From: Paenibacillus alkaliterrae
GTDB taxonomy: Bacteria; Bacillota; Bacilli; Paenibacillales; Paenibacillaceae
Assembly (NCBI RefSeq): GCF_021532375.1
Contig: NZ_JAKGAP010000023.1
Location: forward strand, 53,395 to 117,394
Length of the DNA: 64,000 nt
Direction of reading: 5' to 3'
Made by a program: the position numbers and the translations under genes
Notes under the pieces: model-generated
Databases searched by the model: none
Told to the model about the DNA's origin: nothing
Seen by the model: only the letters and a program-made list of their open reading frames with translations
In this document: piece by piece, positions 20,816-43,617 of the stretch
Position numbering within the stretch: position 1 is the first letter of the stretch
Layout: the number at the start of each line of letters is the position of its first letter

Positions 20816-20860
20816 AAAAACAGCCCTGCCACAAAGCAGCATCTGCCTTGTAACAGGGCT
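20816..20860 (-). terminator. Intrinsic terminator after the L-galactose operon
   Basis: Minus strand AGCCCTG...CAGGGCT with additional inner pairing of ACAAGGCAG and CTGCTTTGT, followed by TTTTT; 25 bp past the lgoD-like stop. Confidence 0.8.
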
Positions 20861-20885: not shown

Positions 20886-21899
20886 CTATAATTCCACCAT
20901 AGCCTTAATGACCTTCGATTCCGGTTTAAGCCAGCTGTCAAAATGGCCGATCATCTCCGTAAACGGAACGCGGTGCGTAATGAAGCTGTCCACATCGATG
21001 CTTCCGCTTTGCACGGCCGCCTGAACGGCGGCAAAATCCGCGATTGTCGCGTTGCGGCTTCCCATCAGCGTCATTTCCCGTTTGTGGAACTCGGGGTCAT
21101 TGAAGGACAAATCGGCTTTGACCAAGCCGACATAAACAAGCCTGCCGCCATGCGCGACGAGACCAAAGGCATCCGTCATGGACCGGGCATTGCCCGTCGC
21201 ATCGAACACGACCGTCGGAAACTCGCCGTTCGTCAGTTCGGCTAGTCTCTCCTTCGCGCCATTCAGCGCATGGACCGTCTCATCAACCTTCGCCCACTGC
21301 CGGCAAAAGACGAGGCGCTCCTCTTGTATATCCATCGCGATAACGCGCGCGCCGCGATGCTTGGCGAACGCCATGACTCCAAGCCCGATCGGTCCCGAGC
21401 CGATGACGAGCGCCGTCTCACCCGCGCGAAGCTCGGCGCGGCGTACCGCATGCGCTCCGATGCTCAGCGGCTCCAGCACAGCCGCTTGATCTAAAGTAAG
21501 CCCGTTCGTCACAAGCAGATGCGTGACGGGTACAGCCAGCAGCTCCCGCATGCCGCCGTCAATATGAACTCCAAGCACCTTCATGTCCGTGCAGCAATTG
21601 GTCTTCCCGTGTCGGCAGGCGATGCAATCGCCGCAATGCATATAAGGAATGATGCTCACCTGATCGCCAATCCGGATAGGGCTAGAAGAATCATTCACCT
21701 GCTCCACAATACCGGCGAGCTCATGTCCGAGCACCCGCGGATAGGAGAAAAACGGCTGATTTCCCTTATACGCATGCAAATCGGTGCCGCAGATGCCGAT
21801 TCTGCGTATTCGGACGACAGCCGTCTCCGGCTGAAGAGCTGGCTCCTCCTGCTCAATCAGCCGAAGCTGATCGGCTTGCTCACAAACGATTGTTTTCAC
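20886..21899 (-). CDS. lgoD: L-galactonate 5-dehydrogenase, zinc MDR family (LgoD/YjjN-like)
   Basis: 337 residues, medium-chain zinc alcohol dehydrogenase. Catalytic-zinc residues GICGTD and GHE; structural-zinc cysteines in CGDCIACRHGKTNCC; Rossmann GSGPIGLG near 167. Diagnostic segments match what I recall of E. coli YjjN/LgoD: GNQPFFSYPRVLGHE, NCC...GVHxDGG, and DPEFHKREMTLMGSRNAT. It oxidises L-galactonate at C5 to D-tagaturonate with NAD. Start is GTG 21899 behind AAGGAGG. It is the last gene of a five-gene operon whose other enzymes supply L-galactonate and consume tagaturonate, which supports the assignment. Confidence 0.85.
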   Translation of the reverse strand: MKTIVCEQADQLRLIEQEEPALQPETAVVRIRRIGICGTDLHAYKGNQPFFSYPRVLGHELAGIVEQVNDSSSPIRIGDQVSIIPYMHCGDCIACRHGKTNCCTDMKVLGVHIDGGMRELLAVPVTHLLVTNGLTLDQAAVLEPLSIGAHAVRRAELRAGETALVIGSGPIGLGVMAFAKHRGARVIAMDIQEERLVFCRQWAKVDETVHALNGAKERLAELTNGEFPTVVFDATGNARSMTDAFGLVAHGGRLVYVGLVKADLSFNDPEFHKREMTLMGSRNATIADFAAVQAAVQSGSIDVDSFITHRVPFTEMIGHFDSWLKPESKVIKAMVEL

Positions 21900-21966
21900 T
21901 CTGCAGTTCCTCCTTGTAACGATAACATTAATAACATCCTAACGATGCTTCTCTTCCGAGTACTCT

Positions 21967-22911
21967 CTAGACGATAATATTCTCATTATACTCCGGCCTT
22001 CCGCTCTCCCAGCTCCGATTATGAATCGGCTCCAATATAGCCAGCACTTCGCCCAGCAGCTCTTCGTCAAGCGATTCATCCGTCCATTCGATGTTTTTAC
22101 GAATATTAGCCGGATTTGCCGTACTGACGAGGGTCGTCGGAATCCGCTCATTCGCTGTCGCGTATTGAACCGCAAGCTTCGTAATGTCCGCGCCCTTCGC
22201 GGCGCAATGCTCGGCAGCCTTCTTGCAGATGGCCCGGATCCCGGCACCGGCAGGGTGCCAATCCGCAGCGGGACGCGTGCTCAGCAGTCCCATGGAGAGC
22301 GGCGAAGCGCTTACCAGCCCGACCTGCTTCTGCTCCAGCAGCGGTACAATGTCGAGCAAGGACGTATCGTTTAACGAGTAGTGACAGTAGGACAAGACGA
22401 CATCCAGCTCCCGGTACGCCAGCGACCTCTCAAACACCGCGAGTGGAAGCCCGGAAACGCCGGAGAAGCGGATTTTCCCTTGCTGCTTCAGCTTATCCAG
22501 AGCAGGAAATGCGCCCTCAGCCACCTGCTCGAAAGGAACAAATTCAATATCATGCAAAAATAATAAATCGATATAGTCCGTTTTCAGCCGCTGCAAACTT
22601 TCGTCCACGCTCCGCAAAATGCGCTGCTCGGAGAAATCGAACTCATCCGCGCCATATCGGCCAGCCTTCGTCGATAAAATAAACTTTTCCCTAGGCATCC
22701 CTGCAATCGCCTTGCCCAGCACCGTCTCTGCCTTCGTTAAGCCGTAATACGGCGACACATCGATCAGATTTATCCCCATATCGACCGCCGAGTGCACCGT
22801 TCTCACGCTCTCCGCCTCGTCCGTCTCCCGGAATACCGAGCCAAGCGACGACGCGCCAAAGCTGAGCGCCGACACATCCAATCCCGTCTTTCCAAGCTTC
22901 CGGTATTTCAC
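21967..22911 (-). CDS. L-galactose dehydrogenase, aldo/keto reductase family
   Basis: 314 residues. AKR fold with catalytic tetrad D in INLIDVSPYYG, Y in the same motif, K in ILSTKAGRYG, H in LLFLHDIEF. It shares distinctive stretches with plant L-galactose dehydrogenase as I remember it: FGASSLGSVF, SYCHYSLNDTSLLD, SASPLSMGLL, DWHPA and ILEPIHN. Predicted to oxidise L-galactose (possibly L-fucose) to the 1,4/1,5-lactone with NAD(P). Begins with GTG behind AGGAG. Sits between uxaA (60 bp) and the lgoD-like gene (67 bp) in one operon. Confidence 0.82.
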   Translation of the reverse strand: MKYRKLGKTGLDVSALSFGASSLGSVFRETDEAESVRTVHSAVDMGINLIDVSPYYGLTKAETVLGKAIAGMPREKFILSTKAGRYGADEFDFSEQRILRSVDESLQRLKTDYIDLLFLHDIEFVPFEQVAEGAFPALDKLKQQGKIRFSGVSGLPLAVFERSLAYRELDVVLSYCHYSLNDTSLLDIVPLLEQKQVGLVSASPLSMGLLSTRPAADWHPAGAGIRAICKKAAEHCAAKGADITKLAVQYATANERIPTTLVSTANPANIRKNIEWTDESLDEELLGEVLAILEPIHNRSWESGRPEYNENIIV

Positions 22912-22971
22912 CTTGCGACCACTCCTATTTGTTGATTCTCAAAATCCATAGCTCAACGATTGCCCGCATTC

Positions 22972-24480
22972 TTACAAAATAACGCCGTCCTTGAAAATCG
23001 CGATCTCCTTGAAGCCGTTGCGCTCATTGTTCGTCCGCGTCTCGCCGGAGGCGAGGCTGATCAGCTGCTCCCACAGCTCATCCGTCAGCGTCTCCATGCT
23101 TTTGTCCTCGAGCAGCTGCCCGGCGTTGAAGTCGATCCAGTTTTTCTTGCGGTCTGCCAGCTCGCTGTTCGTCGCGATCTTGACCGTCGGAACAGGCCCT
23201 CCGAACGGCGTTCCCCGGCCCGTAGTGAATAACACGATATGTGCTCCGCCTGCAGACAGCGCCGTTACCGAAACGAGATCATTGCCCGGCGCCTCAAGCA
23301 AATTCAGCCCGCTGCTCGTAATCCGCTCCCCGTAAGGAACGACGTCCTGCACGATCGCATGGCCGCCCTTCTGCGTACAGCCGAGCGACTTTTCCTCCAG
23401 CGTACTAATGCCGCCCGCCTTATTGCCCGGCGATGGATTCTCATATATCTCCTGATCATGCTTGATAAAATATTGCTTGAAATCATTGATAAGACTCACG
23501 ATTTTACCGAAAACCTGCTCATCCGCCGCACGATTCATCAGAATCGTCTCCGCTCCGAACATTTCCGGCACCTCGGTCAAAATAGCCGTTCCGCCAGCCG
23601 CGATCAACCGGTCGGATACCGCGCCAACCAGCGGATTTGCCGTAATGCCGGACAAGCCGTCCGATCCTCCGCACTTAAGCCCGAGCTTCAGCTTCGACAC
23701 CGGCACCGGCTCTCGCTTAAACCGCTCCGCATAGCCGACAAGCTCACCGATCAGCTCCAGCGCTTCTTCGATCTCGTCCTCGGCCTCCTGCGACTTCAGA
23801 AACTTGATCCGCTCCGGGCTATGCTCGCCGATTGCCCGCTTGAACGCATCGATCTGATTGTTCTCGCAGCCAAGGCCAATGACGAGCACGCCTGCCGCAT
23901 TCGGATGATTGACGAGCGAAGCCAGCAGCTTCTGCGTATGAACAAGATCATCGCCAAGCTGCGAGCAGCCGAACGGATGCGCGAAATGGTAGACGCCGTC
24001 GACGCGGCCCTCATATAAGGCATGTGCTTTTCTCGCTACGATTTCGCATGTTTTGTTAATGCAGCCAACCGTGTTAATGATCCAAATTTCGTTGCGGATG
24101 CCGACCTCGCCATTGTCGCGGACGAAGCCTTGAAAGGTGCGGGCTTCATCCCTTGCAGCTCTTGTTTCCCGCCGCTCCTGCTTGCCAGGCTCGTACGAAT
24201 AATCGAGAAAGCCCTTAAGCCCCGTGCCCATATTATGCGTATGCACCCAACTGCCGGGCGCAAGGTCCTCCTTCGCCACGCCGATCGAATAGCCGAACTT
24301 CAGGACATGCTCGCCTGCGCAAACCTTACGCGTTAAAATTTTGTGCCCCTTCGGCACGTCGTCCAGCAGCTCCAGCTCATTCACGCCATCCGCCTCAAGC
24401 AACAGCTTTTCCCCTTTGGCAAAAGGCTGCAACGCGATAATGACGTGATCATCCTCATGCAATCTGACCCAGCTATTCAT
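22972..24480 (-). CDS. uxaA: Altronate dehydratase
   Basis: 502 residues, full-length UxaA/GarD family. N-terminal SAF-like domain (residues 1-95, with GYSIGVAKEDLAPGSWVHTH), then the large dehydratase domain with conserved GCSQLGDD, GLGCENNQ, LKCGGSDGLSGITANPL, GCTQKGGHA and FTTGRGTPFGGPVPT. Converts D-altronate to 2-keto-3-deoxy-D-gluconate. The start overlaps the end of uxaB by 8 bp, indicating coupled translation. KDG kinase and aldolase are not in the window. Confidence 0.94.
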   Translation of the reverse strand: MNSWVRLHEDDHVIIALQPFAKGEKLLLEADGVNELELLDDVPKGHKILTRKVCAGEHVLKFGYSIGVAKEDLAPGSWVHTHNMGTGLKGFLDYSYEPGKQERRETRAARDEARTFQGFVRDNGEVGIRNEIWIINTVGCINKTCEIVARKAHALYEGRVDGVYHFAHPFGCSQLGDDLVHTQKLLASLVNHPNAAGVLVIGLGCENNQIDAFKRAIGEHSPERIKFLKSQEAEDEIEEALELIGELVGYAERFKREPVPVSKLKLGLKCGGSDGLSGITANPLVGAVSDRLIAAGGTAILTEVPEMFGAETILMNRAADEQVFGKIVSLINDFKQYFIKHDQEIYENPSPGNKAGGISTLEEKSLGCTQKGGHAIVQDVVPYGERITSSGLNLLEAPGNDLVSVTALSAGGAHIVLFTTGRGTPFGGPVPTVKIATNSELADRKKNWIDFNAGQLLEDKSMETLTDELWEQLISLASGETRTNNERNGFKEIAIFKDGVIL

Positions 24481-25969
24481 TCGTCCCGCGCTCCATTTCC
24501 GCTATGCTTGCGCTGAGCGCGGCCGCTAATACCGGCCGCTCCGCTGCCAAATCTAGACCCCAGACGGCCTCCAGGCCAAGCAGCTTCTTCACCGTTTTTT
24601 CAAGCGGCCATTGCCGCTCCTCCGCCTCCGACCAAACGGCAGCCATCATTTCCAGCATTCCTGCGTCGTCGCGAACCAAGTACGATGCGCCGCGAAGCGT
24701 CATGCCTTCATATCCGGCTTCTGTACGCTTCACCTTGTAATACCGCAGAAGCCCTGCAAAGCCCTGCGCCAATCCTGCCGGCACTGCCACATAGCTCTCA
24801 GCATAATGAAGCAGCGACGGCAGCAGCCGCACCTTGAATTTACTCAAGCTGTTCATCGCTATGTCTGCTAAACGGTGACGAATGAACGGGTTCAAGAATC
24901 GCTCGTATACATCGCCTGCATACTCCCGCAGCTCCTGATCGGCGATCGGAAGTGAAGGAATAATCTCCTTCTCCACCGTATCTCTCACCAGTCGCCCTAA
25001 TGCCGGATGCTCCATCGCTTCCCGTACTTGCTCGATCCCGTGCAGCAGACCGAGCGGCGTCATCAGCGTGTGCGCTCCGTTCAAGATGCGCACCTTCCGC
25101 AGCTGAAACGGCTTTAAATCGTTAACCCAATGCACATTCATGCCCGCGCTGCGCAGCGGCAGAACAGCCTCGAGCTCCGGCTCCCCCTCAATCGCCCACA
25201 GATGGTATGGCTCCGCCGTACTCAGCATCGGATCGGAATAGCCCCATTCGCCGAACCACGCCTCGGCCTGCTCCGCATCCGGATAGCCCGTAACGATCCG
25301 GTCTACGAGCGAATTGAGAAACCGGTTATGTTCCACAACCCACTGCTTAAATGCCTCAGGGAAACCCCAATCCTCGCTGTATTGCAGCACGCAGCTGCGA
25401 AGCTCGTCGCCATTGCGCTCGAGCAGCTCGCATGGCAAGCACACGAGCCCGCGCTTCGGATCCCCTTCAAAAAACGTAAACCTGCGATAAAGCAGCTGAG
25501 TCAGCTTGCCGGGAAACGACTGAATCGGCTGGCCCTCTGCCAGCGCCTCCGGCCGATACACAAGGCCCGCTTCCGTCGTATTGGATACGACGACCTGCAA
25601 ATCCGGGTTTTCGGCCAGTGCCAGATAAGCCTCCCAATTCGAATAAGGATCGAACGCCTCTCCGAAAACCGAAATAACCTCCGTCCGCTGCACGCTTTCG
25701 CCATTTTCCAAACCTCTTATAACCAGCGTATACAAGCCGTCCTGGCTTGCCAGCGCATCGATCTTCGGCTTGCCGCCCTGCCGTGGCTGCGTCACCGCTA
25801 TACTGCCCTTATATAGTCCCTGCTTGCGGCATTCATGAAGCATCCAATCGAAGAAGCCGCGCAGGAAGTTGCCCTCGCCAATCTGCAGCACCGTGACGGG
25901 CGCCTGCTTCATTTCTTCATAATAGCGAAGCTGCTTTTCATTTAATTGACTGCGATTCAGTGTGGTCAT
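24473..25969 (-). CDS. uxaB: Tagaturonate reductase (altronate oxidoreductase)
   Basis: 498 residues, mannitol-dehydrogenase superfamily. N-terminal Rossmann region with VTVLQIGEGNFLRGFFDWML, middle segment QVVVSNTTEAGL, and catalytic-domain motif VRILNGAHTLMTPLGLLHG (Lys/Asn/His region of polyol dehydrogenases). Reduces D-tagaturonate to D-altronate with NADH. Overlaps the lactonase gene by 4 bp upstream and uxaA by 8 bp downstream. Usually found in galacturonate pathways with uxaC. The lack of uxaC here, and the presence of lgoD- and L-galactose-dehydrogenase-like genes, point to an L-galactose route instead. Confidence 0.92.
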   Translation of the reverse strand: MTTLNRSQLNEKQLRYYEEMKQAPVTVLQIGEGNFLRGFFDWMLHECRKQGLYKGSIAVTQPRQGGKPKIDALASQDGLYTLVIRGLENGESVQRTEVISVFGEAFDPYSNWEAYLALAENPDLQVVVSNTTEAGLVYRPEALAEGQPIQSFPGKLTQLLYRRFTFFEGDPKRGLVCLPCELLERNGDELRSCVLQYSEDWGFPEAFKQWVVEHNRFLNSLVDRIVTGYPDAEQAEAWFGEWGYSDPMLSTAEPYHLWAIEGEPELEAVLPLRSAGMNVHWVNDLKPFQLRKVRILNGAHTLMTPLGLLHGIEQVREAMEHPALGRLVRDTVEKEIIPSLPIADQELREYAGDVYERFLNPFIRHRLADIAMNSLSKFKVRLLPSLLHYAESYVAVPAGLAQGFAGLLRYYKVKRTEAGYEGMTLRGASYLVRDDAGMLEMMAAVWSEAEERQWPLEKTVKKLLGLEAVWGLDLAAERPVLAAALSASIAEMERGTNE

Positions 25970-26796
25970 AGTTTATAAAACTCCTTCGCGTTAAGTCCGA
26001 ATAATCGTTCACGGTCCGTCTCCGTCCATGTTTCAGGCAGTGCGCTCTCCAATATATCAACGACCTCATCATAGCTGGCTGCGAGCAGACATACCGGCCA
26101 GTCGCTGCCGAACATAACGCGTCCCGGTCCAAAGACCGAAATCATATGCCGGATATAGGCGACGAAGTCCGAACGCTTCCAGCTGTCATGCTCCGCCTCT
26201 GTCACCATTCCAGAGAGCTTGCAATAGATATGGGGATGCGCCGCGATGAGGCTCATTTGGCTTTTCCAAGGTTCCATCACCCCGTCCCGAATGCGCGGCT
26301 TCGCAATATGATCGATAACCGCATGCAAGTCAGGCACCCTGTCAAGCAGCTCTATCACCGTCTCAAGCTGATGGGACACGACGAGCAAATCGACGGGCGT
26401 GCCCTGATCCGCAAAATAAGTGAGCGCTTCCACGAAGGCCGGCCCCAGCACCGCGTTCGCATCCGGCATCTCTTGAATCATGACGCGAAAGCCGACAAGC
26501 TTCGGATGCTTCGCGAACCGCTCATACTGAATCCGGTAATATGGATCGGCCAGATCAAGCCATGCTACAACGCCTTTAATCGACGGTTCATTCTCGCTTA
26601 GCTTTAACAAATAATCGGTTTCCGCCTGCGTCGCCGCCGCTTGCACGACGATCGAGCCATCCAGCTTATGTTTATCCAAATGAACCTTCAAATCCCCAGG
26701 CAAAAAATCCCGATACAGCACCGGAATATCCGGCGTAATCCAGCCGTAGTCTCCCCGTTCAATGCTCCAATAATGCTGATGCGCATCCAGTCTCAT
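25966..26796 (-). CDS. Sugar lactonase, amidohydrolase family (COG3618 type)
   Basis: About 276 residues from ATG 26796 (AAGAGG eight bases upstream). The start reads MRLDAHQHYW, the HxH metal motif of amidohydrolase_2 proteins. It continues with GVVAWLDLADP, HAVIDHIAKPRIRDG, YCKLSGMVTEA and FGSDWPVCLLAASY, the pattern of L-rhamnono-, L-fucono- and L-galactono-lactonases of COG3618. Predicted to open L-galactonolactone to L-galactonate. First gene of the operon; the regulator is transcribed divergently 150 bp away. Confidence 0.84.
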   Translation of the reverse strand: MRLDAHQHYWSIERGDYGWITPDIPVLYRDFLPGDLKVHLDKHKLDGSIVVQAAATQAETDYLLKLSENEPSIKGVVAWLDLADPYYRIQYERFAKHPKLVGFRVMIQEMPDANAVLGPAFVEALTYFADQGTPVDLLVVSHQLETVIELLDRVPDLHAVIDHIAKPRIRDGVMEPWKSQMSLIAAHPHIYCKLSGMVTEAEHDSWKRSDFVAYIRHMISVFGPGRVMFGSDWPVCLLAASYDEVVDILESALPETWTETDRERLFGLNAKEFYKL

Positions 26797-26945
26797 CTCG
26801 ATCGCCTCTTTCCTGGCAGATAACTTATCCTCTTCATTATAAAAAACAATATCGATGCCTGAAATAATCAATAGCGGCTTATTTGTACTCTTTTTTGATA
26901 TTTGCTACAATCAGGCTGACTAACTTCGAAAATGAGGTGCAGCTT

Positions 26946-27803
26946 ATGAATCCCTATCGCAAAAGATTCGATGCTCAGACCGTTTTTCCGTTCGAGTGTG
27001 TCTACCGTGATACGAAAAGCGCGCAAAACGAGCTGCCCGACCATCTGCATGATTGGTATGAGCTTGTCTATTTATATAGCGGAAAAGGTACTTTTTTCAT
27101 CGATCAGACGATTTATGCCGCCGCACCCGGCGACGTCTTCATGATTCCAGGCAACACGATTCATCGTTCGTTTCCCGATCCGGACGATCCGAAGACGTCG
27201 ACGGCTCTTTTCTTCAGCGCCTCTCTCGTTCACAGCCCGCCGCTTGGCGACTCGTTCTCGTATTTGCGCTGCTTTGAACAAGCGAAGCGCCGGAAAGCGT
27301 ACAAGCTGTCGGCGACCGAAGCCGAGAAGCAGCAGCTCATAGCCTTGATCGAACGCATCCATGCGGAGGAAATTGACAAGCAGCCGGGCTATCGTCAAGC
27401 TGTGCTTCTTCATTTGCAGCAAATTTTACTGCTTCTAGGCCGTACAGTCCATCCAACGGAGTCTGCGCAAGCGGTCCCGGCCGCCCTTCCCGGATGGATG
27501 ACCAGCATACTGACCTATATCGACGAGCATCCAGGCAATCCTCTGGGCCTATCCCAGCTTGCGAAGCTAGCTTCCGTCACGCCCGCCCACTTCTCCCGCG
27601 TCTTCAAAAAGCTGACCGGCCTGAACGTCACCGAATACGTTACGACCAAACGGATCATTCGCGCGAAGGAGCTGCTTATCGAAACCGATACCAATATCGC
27701 GGACATCGCCGAGCGATGCGGCTTCGAGAGCCTGCCCCATTTTCACCGCATGTTCAAGAAGCTGACCGGCATAACCCCCGCGCATTACAAGAAAAGCGAA
27801 TAA
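26946..27803 (+). CDS. AraC-family regulator of the L-galactose operon
   Basis: About 285 residues from ATG 26946 behind GAGGTG. An N-terminal cupin-like sugar-sensing domain (HLHDWYELVYLYSGKGTFFI; PGDVFMIPGNTIHRS) is followed by an AraC double helix-turn-helix (about 190-285): LGLSQLAKLASVTPAHFSRV and IAERCGFESLPHFHRMFKKL. Divergent from the lactonase-uxaB-uxaA-dehydrogenase operon with a 149-bp shared intergenic region, so it probably activates that operon when L-galactose or an intermediate is present. The inducer is inferred. Confidence 0.88.
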   Translation: MNPYRKRFDAQTVFPFECVYRDTKSAQNELPDHLHDWYELVYLYSGKGTFFIDQTIYAAAPGDVFMIPGNTIHRSFPDPDDPKTSTALFFSASLVHSPPLGDSFSYLRCFEQAKRRKAYKLSATEAEKQQLIALIERIHAEEIDKQPGYRQAVLLHLQQILLLLGRTVHPTESAQAVPAALPGWMTSILTYIDEHPGNPLGLSQLAKLASVTPAHFSRVFKKLTGLNVTEYVTTKRIIRAKELLIETDTNIADIAERCGFESLPHFHRMFKKLTGITPAHYKKSE

Positions 27804-27901: not shown

Positions 27902-28063
27902 ATGGTACGTTCAAACGTCAAAACTTTAAAGTACCGCGTCGGCAAAAACAAATACCTGGTCATTAACATTTACCAATCGTCAGAGGCAAGCACCTTACAG
28001 GGTAACGTGCTGGCAAGCAACGCGGCCACCGTGCAAATTTTCAAGAAATCCAACCGCCGCTAA
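27902..28063 (+). CDS. Small basic protein, unknown function (53 aa)
   Basis: Starts ATG 27902 behind GGGAGG and ends TAA. The product begins MVRSNVKTLKYRVGKNKYLV and ends KKSNRR. It is basic, without Cys, and predicted beta-rich with clustered Lys/Arg at both ends. The ribosome site and the partner gene 59 bp downstream support it being real. No family recognised. Basic charge suggests nucleic-acid or cell-wall binding, but that is a guess. Confidence 0.6.
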   Translation: MVRSNVKTLKYRVGKNKYLVINIYQSSEASTLQGNVLASNAATVQIFKKSNRR

Positions 28064-28122
28064 CCTTTTCCCCATACGCGCATCAGTCCTGAAGTACGAG
28101 TACGCTTGAAGGGGGTGAGATT

Positions 28123-28308
28123 ATGGCACGTAAACATTACAATTTCGGCAAACATTCCAAAAAATCCAACGCTGTCAAATGGAAAAACAGTAAAACCCGC
28201 GTAAACGTAAAACAAAAAGCTAATGCATTCGTCTTTTTTGGCGGCAATGCAATTGCTGTCAACGCTTCAGACATCGGAGTCGTACGCACTCGTCCTGGTA
28301 ATGAGTAA
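28123..28308 (+). CDS. Small basic protein, unknown function (61 aa)
   Basis: Starts ATG 28123 seven bases after GGGGGTGA. Highly basic N-terminal half (HYNFGKHSKKSNAVKWKNSK), then a hydrophobic, Gly/Ala-rich strand-like C-terminal half (FVFFGGNAIAVNASDIGVV). It follows the 53-residue basic gene in the same direction and is itself followed by a terminator, so the two form a small operon. No relatives recognised. They could be secreted or DNA-associated peptides; nothing in the sequence decides this. Confidence 0.65.
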   Translation: MARKHYNFGKHSKKSNAVKWKNSKTRVNVKQKANAFVFFGGNAIAVNASDIGVVRTRPGNE

Positions 28309-28328
28309 TTAGACGTTCAGCGCAAAAA

Positions 28329-40747: not shown

Positions 40748-41847
40748 CTAGCTCGCTTTAAGCTTTATCCAAGATGTCCACAACAGTGTTCTCAGGTTAT
40801 CCATCAGTTCCGTCAGCGATTTATTTCCAGCGATCTCAAGTTTCATCAGGAGCAACAAGCAGTAAGCGATCAGACAAATCCAGATTTGATTCATGACAGC
40901 ATTCTCTTCTGTGCCGTAATGCAGGTTAATTTCAAATTCTGTTTGACCCACCGGAAGAAAATCTCGATTTGCCAGCGACTCCGATACAAGTCACCTAGCT
41001 CTTCGGCTGTGATTTCAAAGCGGTTCGTGATGATCCGAACCGGATTGCCCTTGCTACCCGTTATCTCAATCATGCGAAGCGCATTCTTCATACGCTTATT
41101 GCCTTTGCCTAAGATGACTTTCATATCGCGAGTAATTTTCGAGTCTTCAAGTACAGGAAACTCACTTACTTCCTCGATAATGGCGTTGTTCTTAAGCCGA
41201 GATACGAAAGGAATGCCGCGCACACAATAATCATCGTACTTCGTGTAGTCAAGGTAACCGCGATCCATTAAATAAGTAGCGTCCGCTTCGTCAATCAGCA
41301 CGTCCATCTGTGTATGATCCGCTGGCTTTGCAGGAGTAATGACCGCTTTGTCCGGATAAACCATGCCTGGCTCCGCAAACGTAACACGAAGATGTAGTTT
41401 CACACCGGCTTTTGTTTTGCGGAACGTCGCCCACTTATACTTGTTTAGACAAAGGCTGATGGTGGTGGAGTCGATCACTTTCACCGGACCTACGCGAGCA
41501 GTTGCTGGGGTCTGAAGGCGATGCAGTTGCGAGATGAGATCGCACAGAATGTTTTGCAACACTTCGGGATCCAGCTTGTTGTTTTTCCGTGAAAGCTGAG
41601 CGGCGCTTATCGAGTTGATGCCAATCGCTTGCTGAAACTCCTCGTCGGCCTGAATCTCTCTCATAATCGATCGTAGCCCTTTGCGTTTCTGAAGTTGGGC
41701 TTCCACGAACAGGAGCAAAAATACCATCGTGCTCAGTTTTTTCGTGTAGCGGTCGAGCGTGCTGAAGTTCTGCCAATCTTGAATAATTTCTGAATTTATT
41801 GGTGCAACCCATTTACCAAATGACGTAAGTAGAGTATCCTTGTCCAT
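40748..41847 (-). pseudogene. IS4-family DDE transposase, frameshifted near its C-terminus
   Basis: Main frame 40891-41847 (318 residues, MDKDTLLTSFGKWVAPINSE) has the DDE features: Asp in KVIDSTTISL, Asp in LMDRGYLDYTKYD, and the Y-(2)-R-(3)-E-(6)-K signature in YRSRWQIEIFFRWVKQ. Right after KQNLK it shifts frame and stops. The family continuation NLHYGTEENAVMNQIWICLI is in the overlapping frame, down to 40748. One base is missing in an A-run (TTGAAATTAACC), so about 65 C-terminal residues are lost. Either this copy is dead and was mobilised in trans, or the shift arose after insertion. Programmed frameshifting is not known to me for this IS group. Confidence 0.82.
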
Positions 41848-41900
41848 GTGTGATCTCCTAATTAGGGATTTGGACAGGGACTACCTGTACCTCTAATTTT

Positions 41901-42006
41901 AGGAGATTTTTTTCTACAGCGAACAACACAAATTTTACATATTTAGCACAATTTAACTTCATCTAATTCGCTTCAAACCTATGTTAGGTTTAATGCAACG
42001 CTACTG
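41901..42006. repeat. IS right-end sequence, inner copy
   Basis: 106 bp from AGGAGATTTTTTTCTACAGC to ATGCAACGCTACTG. Repeated at 44069-44174 with a single visible difference (ACAGCGAAC versus ACAGCCAAC). Marks the normal right end of the 1.35-kb IS. Confidence 0.85.
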
Positions 42007-42092
42007 TTGCATGCTATTTGTTATGGCAAAAACCTTTTGGCTACCAGAAAACATGCAGTTTTTTCAGTCTTTATTTTCATCGAACACTTGAA

Positions 42093-42533
42093 TTAAAATT
42101 GGTACAATGATACGCATTTTATTTCTTTGAGAATTTCGAGTCGTTGATCGTTTGTTATAAACAAATCCGCATTGGCTACAAGCGCCGTGGCTACTATCAA
42201 TGCATCTGGTGTTTTGATATTGTATTTTCCTCGAAGATAGGCAGCCCGTTCGGCGACCACGTTATCGATTGGTAAGATGGTAAGATTGGGAAAGTGAGCG
42301 AAAAGCAATTTGTATTGCTTCTCCAGAGTCAGGTTTCCTTCACGTATTGGTTTAACCAAGATTTCAGTCAGAGAGACGGAAGAAGCCACCGCGGCGACAA
42401 GTCCATCTTCTATCTGTTCCAAAATCGCTTTAGCTTTCTCACCAAAATCTGGATGTTGTTCAAATACATAAATGAACAGATTCGTATCTAACGCGATTTT
42501 CTTACTACCATGAAGAAAGTTTGGCGCTACCAT
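42093..42533 (-). CDS. PIN-domain toxin (VapC-like ribonuclease)
   Basis: 146 residues, PIN-domain fold. Acidic active-site residues: Asp in IALDTNLFIYVF near residue 16, Glu in VSLTEILVKP near 55, Asp in IKTPDALIVATAL near 110, and Asp in ADLFITNDQRL near 128. As a toxin it would cleave RNA until bound by its antitoxin. Its start overlaps the antitoxin end by 7 bp, the standard antitoxin-first order. Carried between the two IS right ends as part of Tn3-derived cargo; toxin-antitoxin modules are known passengers of Tn3 elements. Confidence 0.85.
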   Translation of the reverse strand: MVAPNFLHGSKKIALDTNLFIYVFEQHPDFGEKAKAILEQIEDGLVAAVASSVSLTEILVKPIREGNLTLEKQYKLLFAHFPNLTILPIDNVVAERAAYLRGKYNIKTPDALIVATALVANADLFITNDQRLEILKEIKCVSLYQF

Positions 42534-42778
42534 TCAGTACGCTCCTTCCGAATGTAATCGTCCGCTGTTTCCTGTTCCCAGATGTCTTTGCCAAGACCCC
42601 ATAGTTTGTCAGAGAAAGATTTTGGTTTCGGCATAACAATGATTTCTTGACGAATTTCATCGTACTGCCAGAGTAATGAATCGCCAACATTAAGTTTTGC
42701 CCTCGTTCTTATTTCTTCGGGTATTGTTATCTGATATCTCGTGCGAATTTCGCTTTCAGATTTGAAAACATAATCCAT
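42527..42778 (-). CDS. AbrB/MazE-like antitoxin
   Basis: About 83 residues from ATG 42778 (AAGGAG nine bases upstream). N-terminal swapped-hairpin AbrB DNA-binding domain: RTRYQITIPEEIRTRAKLNV then GDSLLW. C-terminal acidic tail (DIWEQETADDYIRKERTEW) would wrap the toxin. Expected to bind its own promoter and autoregulate the pair. Directly upstream of, and overlapping, the PIN toxin gene. Confidence 0.83.
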   Translation of the reverse strand: MDYVFKSESEIRTRYQITIPEEIRTRAKLNVGDSLLWQYDEIRQEIIVMPKPKSFSDKLWGLGKDIWEQETADDYIRKERTEW

Positions 42779-42871
42779 ACTGACCATCTCCTTGACACTT
42801 CGTATATAAACAAATTATATCATACAAAAACTCAAATCGTCTAATCTTCTTAGGTTTTATCACAAATGAAT

Positions 42872-42989
42872 CCAATCACACACAATTACATTGTGTATGA
42901 TTGGTAAAATGGCGAAAACCCGCGCCACTGCTGGACTTTTAAAGATATTTATTTTTTAAGAGATGGGCGTACCTCTATCAATCACACAT
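42872..42989 (+). promoter_or_regulatory. Putative internal recombination site (IRS-like) of TnpI-like recombinase
   Basis: Near-perfect inverted repeat CCAATCACACACAAT (42872-42886) / ATTGTGTATGATTGG (42890-42904), plus a further direct copy CAATCACACAT at 42979-42989, ending 50 bp before the recombinase start. This core-plus-accessory arrangement just upstream of the gene matches the layout of the internal resolution site of TnpI-type Tn3 elements such as Tn4430 (family knowledge). Direct binding is inferred. Confidence 0.6.
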
Positions 42990-43038
42990 ATTATAGGATA
43001 AAATAAATTTAAGTATTATACATAAAGGATGATGTTTT

Positions 43039-43617
43039 ATGGAATTTGTACAACCGATACGTGACAAAAAACAGATTGATGCCATGAAAAAGATTTTGAA
43101 AGCGACAAGTGTTCGTGACTTTTGTTTGTTCACGTTGGGAATTAATTGCGGACTTCGGATTAGTGATCTGCTGGGCTTATTCATTAGTGATGTGATCGAC
43201 GAAAAAGGAAAGGTCTTGGATCGAATTTCCATTCGTGAACAAAAAACGGGTAAAACGAAGGACTTTCCAATCAGTAATGTCGCGGCAAAGGCTATCAAGG
43301 AATATTTGGCCAAGCGAGGAAGCTTCAATCAAAACGAACCATTGTTTCTTTCTCGAAAGGCAACAAATGGTCTAGCACCGTTACAGAGATGGCAAGCTTA
43401 CACCGTCATCAATGCAGCAGCGCGTGCGGTTGGGATCAAAGATAAGATTGGGACGCATACACTTCGAAAGACTTTTGGGTATCATGCCTTTCAACAAAGT
43501 GTGGATATTACGATCATTCAGAAGCTGCTTAACCATTCATCACCCCGCGTCACTTTGGCATATATCGGGATCACTCAAGATGATCTGGATAAGGTTGTAC
43601 TTAACTTGAATTTATAG
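43039..43617 (+). CDS. Tyrosine recombinase (TnpI-like cointegrate resolvase)
   Basis: 192 residues, essentially the catalytic domain alone. All catalytic residues are visible: Arg in INCGLRISDLLGL, Lys in REQKTGKTKDF, HTLR with the second Arg in GTHTLRKTFGYH, His in LLNHSSPRVT, and nucleophile Tyr in LAYIGIT. The missing N-terminal core-binding domain makes it shorter than XerC/XerD. It sits directly behind an inverted-repeat site and in front of a tnpA fragment, as in Tn3-family elements that use a tyrosine resolvase. Start ATG 43039 follows AAAGGATGATG. Confidence 0.85.
   Translation: MEFVQPIRDKKQIDAMKKILKATSVRDFCLFTLGINCGLRISDLLGLFISDVIDEKGKVLDRISIREQKTGKTKDFPISNVAAKAIKEYLAKRGSFNQNEPLFLSRKATNGLAPLQRWQAYTVINAAARAVGIKDKIGTHTLRKTFGYHAFQQSVDITIIQKLLNHSSPRVTLAYIGITQDDLDKVVLNLNL

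Follow-up and report, generated by a model that had tools for sequence, protein, structure and literature searches.

A run of five enzyme genes with a divergent AraC-family regulator gene, located in a 64,000-nucleotide stretch of the Paenibacillus alkaliterrae genome (contig NZ_JAKGAP010000023.1, positions 53,395 to 117,394; hereafter the window), very probably forms a cluster for the breakdown of L-galactose to 2-keto-3-deoxygluconate (KDG). Established knowledge of these enzyme families suggests how the chain would run. An aldo/keto reductase (AKR) would oxidise L-galactose to L-galactonolactone, which a COG3618-type lactonase would open to L-galactonate; an LgoD-like zinc dehydrogenase would then oxidise L-galactonate at C5 to D-tagaturonate, which UxaB would reduce to D-altronate and UxaA would in turn convert to KDG, with the AraC protein likely activating transcription of the cluster. 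A preliminary description of this DNA had proposed the same route from L-galactose through the lactone, L-galactonate, tagaturonate and altronate to KDG, and both reference proteins and related loci support it, the specificity of each step being predicted.

Each of the top five PDB matches of the AKR (21967–22911, minus strand; predicted L-galactose 1-dehydrogenase) bears the name L-galactose dehydrogenase (E 4e-102 to 1.3e-83), and the sixth is far weaker (E 9.3e-30). By motif, D51, Y56, K82 and H120 make up its putative catalytic tetrad, corresponding to that given for spinach L-galactose dehydrogenase (PMC10069634). These matches place the protein, by sequence, in the L-galactose dehydrogenase family. 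The zinc dehydrogenase (20886–21899, minus strand; predicted L-galactonate 5-dehydrogenase) is 42% identical to Escherichia coli LgoD (339 aa) versus 33% to RspB (319 aa), and has the stretches GNQPFFSYPRVLGHE and DPEFHK in common with LgoD. Its zinc-ligand motifs lie at residues 35–42, 58–60 and 89–103, and its top NCBIfam model is the PRK10083 zinc oxidoreductase (213 bits, below the cut-off of 376); we class it as LgoD type.

UxaB (24473–25969, minus strand; predicted D-tagaturonate reductase) scored 574.6 bits against the tagaturonate reductase model NF002969, for which the curated cut-off is 359, and is 38% identical to its E. coli namesake. UxaA (22972–24480, minus strand; predicted D-altronate dehydratase) carries Pfam GD_AH domains and shares 52% identity with E. 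coli UxaA versus 30% with GarD, a value at which we rejected a galactarate dehydratase identity. The genome is thus predicted to encode both tagaturonate reductase and altronate dehydratase. The lactonase (25966–26871, minus strand; predicted L-galactonolactonase) matches one PDB entry by far the best, 4dlf, named Amidohydrolase 2 (E 1.3e-47), and carries H31xH33, H188 and D257; its COG3618 label comes from the preliminary description and the literature rather than from a COG profile scan. Profile scans agree with the family names given earlier to the enzymes, and comparison with named references upholds their assignments, that of the lactonase being the least firm.

All five enzyme genes lie on the minus strand (20886–26871), and the AraC-family gene (26883–27803, plus strand; Pfam AraC_binding and HTH_18) diverges from them; we recovered the six genes at the positions and on the strands first reported. 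Along the direction of transcription the order is lactonase, UxaB, UxaA, AKR and zinc dehydrogenase, with intergenic gaps of -4, -8, 60 and 67 bp, the first two junctions being overlaps. The five genes may be co-transcribed. Downstream (3′) of the last gene lies a probable intrinsic terminator (20822–20860, minus strand) with an 18-pair stem and a GTTTTT tail; terminator-like sites over the region show no clear excess (11 versus 8.8 in shuffles, s.d. 2.8). For the lactonase and AraC genes, the TTG starts given by the open reading frame (ORF) finder probably lie upstream of the true ones. The lactonase is likely to start at the ATG at 26796, because its family match begins only at residue 26, and the AraC gene probably starts at the ATG at 26946.

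We next considered related genomes. Among 394 genomes of the same family, the Paenibacillaceae, 229 had an AKR match at E 1e-40 or better, comprising 214 close matches (E 1e-100 or better) and 15 weak ones. In an even draw across the class, the AKR was found at E 1e-90 in 30 of 398 genomes, 26 of which belong to the window's own family. Of 279 named loci that carry the AKR, we took the best 80 and scored their gene neighbourhoods, counting 90 bits or more as a partner match; a few such matches are distant (lactonases at 37–39% identity, one AraC protein at 26%), and loci truncated by a contig end were kept, here and in the tree counts below, and scored as lacking the unseen genes. The zinc enzyme was present in 72 of the 80 loci, the lactonase in 68 and an AraC protein in 63, the last mostly but not always divergent beside the module, whereas UxaB and UxaA were found in 28 and 27. 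Because the zinc enzyme, the lactonase and the AraC protein recur in most of these loci, the gene arrangement is not due to chance. The module gene order differs in several Bacillaceae loci, which argues for linkage by function.

In 56 foreign AKR neighbourhoods of the family, chosen by hand from the match list with the closest included, UxaB was inside the cluster in 30 (3 of them without UxaA) and not in 26, of which 2 end near the AKR at a contig or stretch end; many of these 56 neighbourhoods and of the 80 loci come from the same genomes, so the two sets of counts are not independent. For 24 of the 26 loci without a clustered UxaB, comparison by hand found UxaB elsewhere in the genome. Mapping the uxaBA label onto an AKR tree (81 rows) requires 10 changes, at least 6 of them forced by well-supported branches, suggesting that uxaBA was probably gained or lost by the module several times. 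In the relatives, where a search for the five-gene set had first been suggested, a core of AKR, zinc enzyme and lactonase recurs, with or without uxaBA in the cluster.

The region between the AraC and lactonase genes contains an operator-like motif, ATATCAAAA-N5-TA-N6-WGC (26877–26901, minus strand), which recurs in divergons of relatives. The motif was defined by visual inspection of intergenic regions, so only the 27 regions not identical to that of a named locus count as a test. These held-out divergons come from relatives, some of them alike, and are not independent; 9 of the 27 contain the full motif, 19 contain it with at most one mismatch and 22 with at most two, compared with shuffle means of 0.00, 0.03 and 0.43 at the same thresholds. 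The five misses were L069 and L073–L076, the latter four being of a single type in which the downstream lactonase is a distant one. Without mismatch, the motif has a single site in the genome, at the L-galactose operon. The other eight genome sites, at one mismatch, were set aside as weak, the reversed control pattern having given 4 sites in all. We infer that the AraC protein binds this motif, with L-galactose as the presumed inducer. A TATAAT sequence (26836–26841, minus strand) lies 35 bp closer to the lactonase than the motif and, judging from its sequence and its recurrence in the intergenic regions of close relatives, is likely to be the operon promoter's −10 box. A scan for sigma-70-like promoters found no site at the operon start (6 sites over the region versus 6.2 in shuffles); the absence of a scan site at the TATAAT implies that there is no good −35 element, as expected for an activator-dependent promoter.

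The same genome holds an AraC paralogue, about 50% identical, on contig C2 (locus L078, 9685–12235), where it faces an ORF for a UxaA/GarD-type dehydratase of 386 aa (38% identical to the window's UxaA), preceded by an ORF of 107 aa. This second divergon, which might serve another L-sugar acid, holds a similar site with three mismatches, a level that shuffles reach in 8 of 40 cases.

A GH95 glycosidase is encoded in 22 of the 80 named loci, and Pfam confirmed the family in all 4 proteins tested; in at least 8 of 17 loci examined, the GH95 gene lies less than 100 bp from a module gene. GH95 holds an experimentally shown alpha-L-galactosidase (PMC4491172), and alpha-L-galactosidases are among its members (PMC4491172, PMC7176698). 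As the family contains both L-galactosidases and L-fucosidases, these neighbours support terminal L-galactose or L-fucose as the source without choosing between them. Three full matches to GH95 occur in the window's own genome, all of them on other contigs. Aquibacillus albus DSM 23711 has two loci (L149 and L152), each with AKR, lactonase, zinc dehydrogenase and GH95.

Several observations weigh against an L-galactose cluster. No transporter gene lies within the cluster, and 5 of the 80 named loci have the AKR alone of the enzyme set. Across the 394 family genomes, UxaB tends to accompany a close AKR (208 of 214 genomes versus 96 of 180 without one), which favours the L-galactose reading, but this comparison ignores kinship, and a UxaB match is missing in 6 of the 214. 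The best solved structure for the zinc dehydrogenase is RspB (4ilk, E 9e-48), although its identity to that protein led us to reject an RspB-type enzyme. The GH95 genes are several kilobases away in other loci and on the opposite strand in 3 of 22, and GH95 is mostly an alpha-L-fucosidase family: one member compared with PDB scored 722 bits against an entry named alpha-L-fucosidase and 627 bits against the L-galactosidase 4ufc, and its top match was an entry that bears no other name than BH0842 protein. A subsite threonine, present in 26 of 26 motif matches, was dropped as evidence for L-galactosidases, two papers reporting that this residue is not decisive. Finally, the top family of the lactonase is L-fucono-1,5-lactonase (NF052480, 246 bits, below the cut-off of 400), and a Paraburkholderia AKR of the same superfamily acts on D-arabinose, L-fucose and L-galactose (PMC6336799).

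The last two points, together with the chance that the neighbouring GH95 enzymes are fucosidases, would suit L-fucose or D-arabinose as the true substrate, since both match L-galactose in stereochemistry at C2–C4 and the AKR and lactonase would then act as in the L-fucose pathway. We nevertheless regard such a substrate as improbable. UxaB, UxaA and a C5 dehydrogenase suit L-galactonate but would not suit an acid that is 6-deoxy or has five carbons, and there is no second dehydratase within the cluster. In addition, LguA of Luteolibacter, which its authors group with plant L-galactose dehydrogenases, is described as inactive on both sugars (PMC12632266).

That report also places the predicted L-galactose cluster among known systems. 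The route via D-tagaturonate has been published for Phocaeicola vulgatus and Luteolibacter, and the Luteolibacter lgu cluster, which has a divergent activator gene, serves L-galactose as judged by gene disruption (PMC12632266). By description, lguR-lguABCDEF of Luteolibacter sp. LG18 is alike in encoding L-galactose and L-galactonate dehydrogenases, altronate dehydratase, tagaturonate reductase and a divergent activator, annotated as HTH-type Btr; its gene order differs. Only lgu includes a KDPG (2-keto-3-deoxy-6-phosphogluconate) aldolase and a fructokinase-like gene, and no lactonase is listed for it (PMC12632266). The lgu cluster also serves L-glucose via LguG, and LguA and LguD take L-glucose and L-gluconate as well (PMC12632266). 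Given so similar a set of lguA, B, C and D genes with a divergent regulator, the Paenibacillus run might likewise be a dual route for L-glucose and L-galactose, with a 5-keto-L-gluconate 4-epimerase encoded elsewhere. We think this distinctly improbable, as LguA favours L-galactose 40-fold in the same report (PMC12632266) and no epimerase gene is found within the cluster.

Other comparisons help to place the L-galactose cluster. In Phocaeicola (Bacteroides) vulgatus, BVU_0219, BVU_0220 and BVU_0222 are said likewise to supply an L-galactose dehydrogenase, a lactonase and an L-galactonate dehydrogenase leading to D-tagaturonate, a pathway reportedly described by Hobbs et al. in 2014; BVU_0220 is said to be a COG3618-family lactonase, and the downstream steps are reportedly supplied by hexuronate genes. 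By contrast, Paenibacillus, a Gram-positive, has uxaB and uxaA within the run and an AraC gene diverging from it. The E. coli L-galactonate pathway (LgoD, UxaB and UxaA) comprises the same last three reactions, the identities to the window's proteins being those given above (42%, 38% and 52%); however, E. coli has lgoD, uxaB and uxaA in three separate places, with no L-galactose dehydrogenase or sugar lactonase in the stretches examined. Halomonas has predicted loci for L-fucose, L-fuconate and L-galactonate in which lgoD stands together with uxaA and uxaB or uxaF; in this proteobacterium, the route starts at L-galactonate, with predicted entry through a TRAP transporter (PMC5507952).

The preliminary description had called a single-operon route of this kind seemingly little described in Gram-positives. 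In a collection of open-access papers, as judged from listings, we recognised no earlier report of Gram-positive L-galactose catabolism, but the pathway itself is published (PMC12632266), so that the operon, which is probably common in Paenibacillaceae, is a further example of a known pathway. Few bacteria shown to use L-galactose were found in that collection. If our reading is correct, a large Gram-positive group has a route of L-galactose breakdown known before from distant bacteria, the linked GH95 enzymes are a place to seek new alpha-L-galactosidases, and five enzymes, one regulator and one operator-like motif make a ready assay set. L-galactose occurs in various plant and red-algal polymers. 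Among plant sources, the side chains of corn-fibre xylan contain L-galactose (PMC7176698).

The cluster may also touch on hexuronate metabolism. The uxaC gene had been described as absent, which is correct for the cluster, but the genome does have uxaC, unlinked, on contig C72, where the surrounding 20 kb that we read hold no match to UxaA or UxaB. As uxaC lies on a separate contig and the canonical uxaC, uxaA and uxaB do not stand together, we rejected a simple galacturonate operon, in agreement with the earlier view. A mainly hexuronate set, in which UxaC encoded elsewhere would feed the clustered UxaB and UxaA while the other three genes would be accessory, could draw on the sole full UxaB found in the genome being here, but it is very improbable, because many relatives keep the trio of AKR, lactonase and zinc enzyme clustered in the absence of uxaBA and the uxaC contig has no site of the operator-like motif within one mismatch, which also leaves a shared regulon with uxaC, named earlier as the refuting case, unsupported.

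For the L-galactose operon, a further consequence follows from its UxaB being the only full copy found in the genome; a second match is partial (51.5 bits) and below the cut-off. D-tagaturonate derived from D-galacturonate would then have to go via the operon UxaB, unless an unrelated reductase exists, and D-galacturonate use may depend on the L-galactose operon. UxuA is also present in the genome, so that UxaC may act mainly on D-glucuronate. Tentatively, and with more doubt than confidence, we propose that Paenibacillaceae have a widespread, dedicated L-galactose regulon and that, in genomes such as this one, the sole tagaturonate reductase has been captured by the L-galactose operon, leaving D-galacturonate use dependent on an operon under an L-galactose-responsive AraC protein; possible coupling of the operon to galacturonate use is worth testing. 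For entry of the sugar, no L-galactose importer was identified in the genome. Two KDPG aldolase genes are present, and no KDG kinase was seen beside either one (about 3.6 kb each, by eye, with no dedicated search).

Other features were noted in passing. At loci L073, L074, L075 and L076, the order is AraC, AKR and zinc dehydrogenase, then a distant lactonase (38–40% identity) downstream, without the operator-like motif. In the window, two short plus-strand ORFs of about 50–60 codons lie just past the AraC gene (27903–28310, by eye), and a transposase-like ORF stands close to an integrase-like ORF at 40891–43617, as read by eye from the translations.

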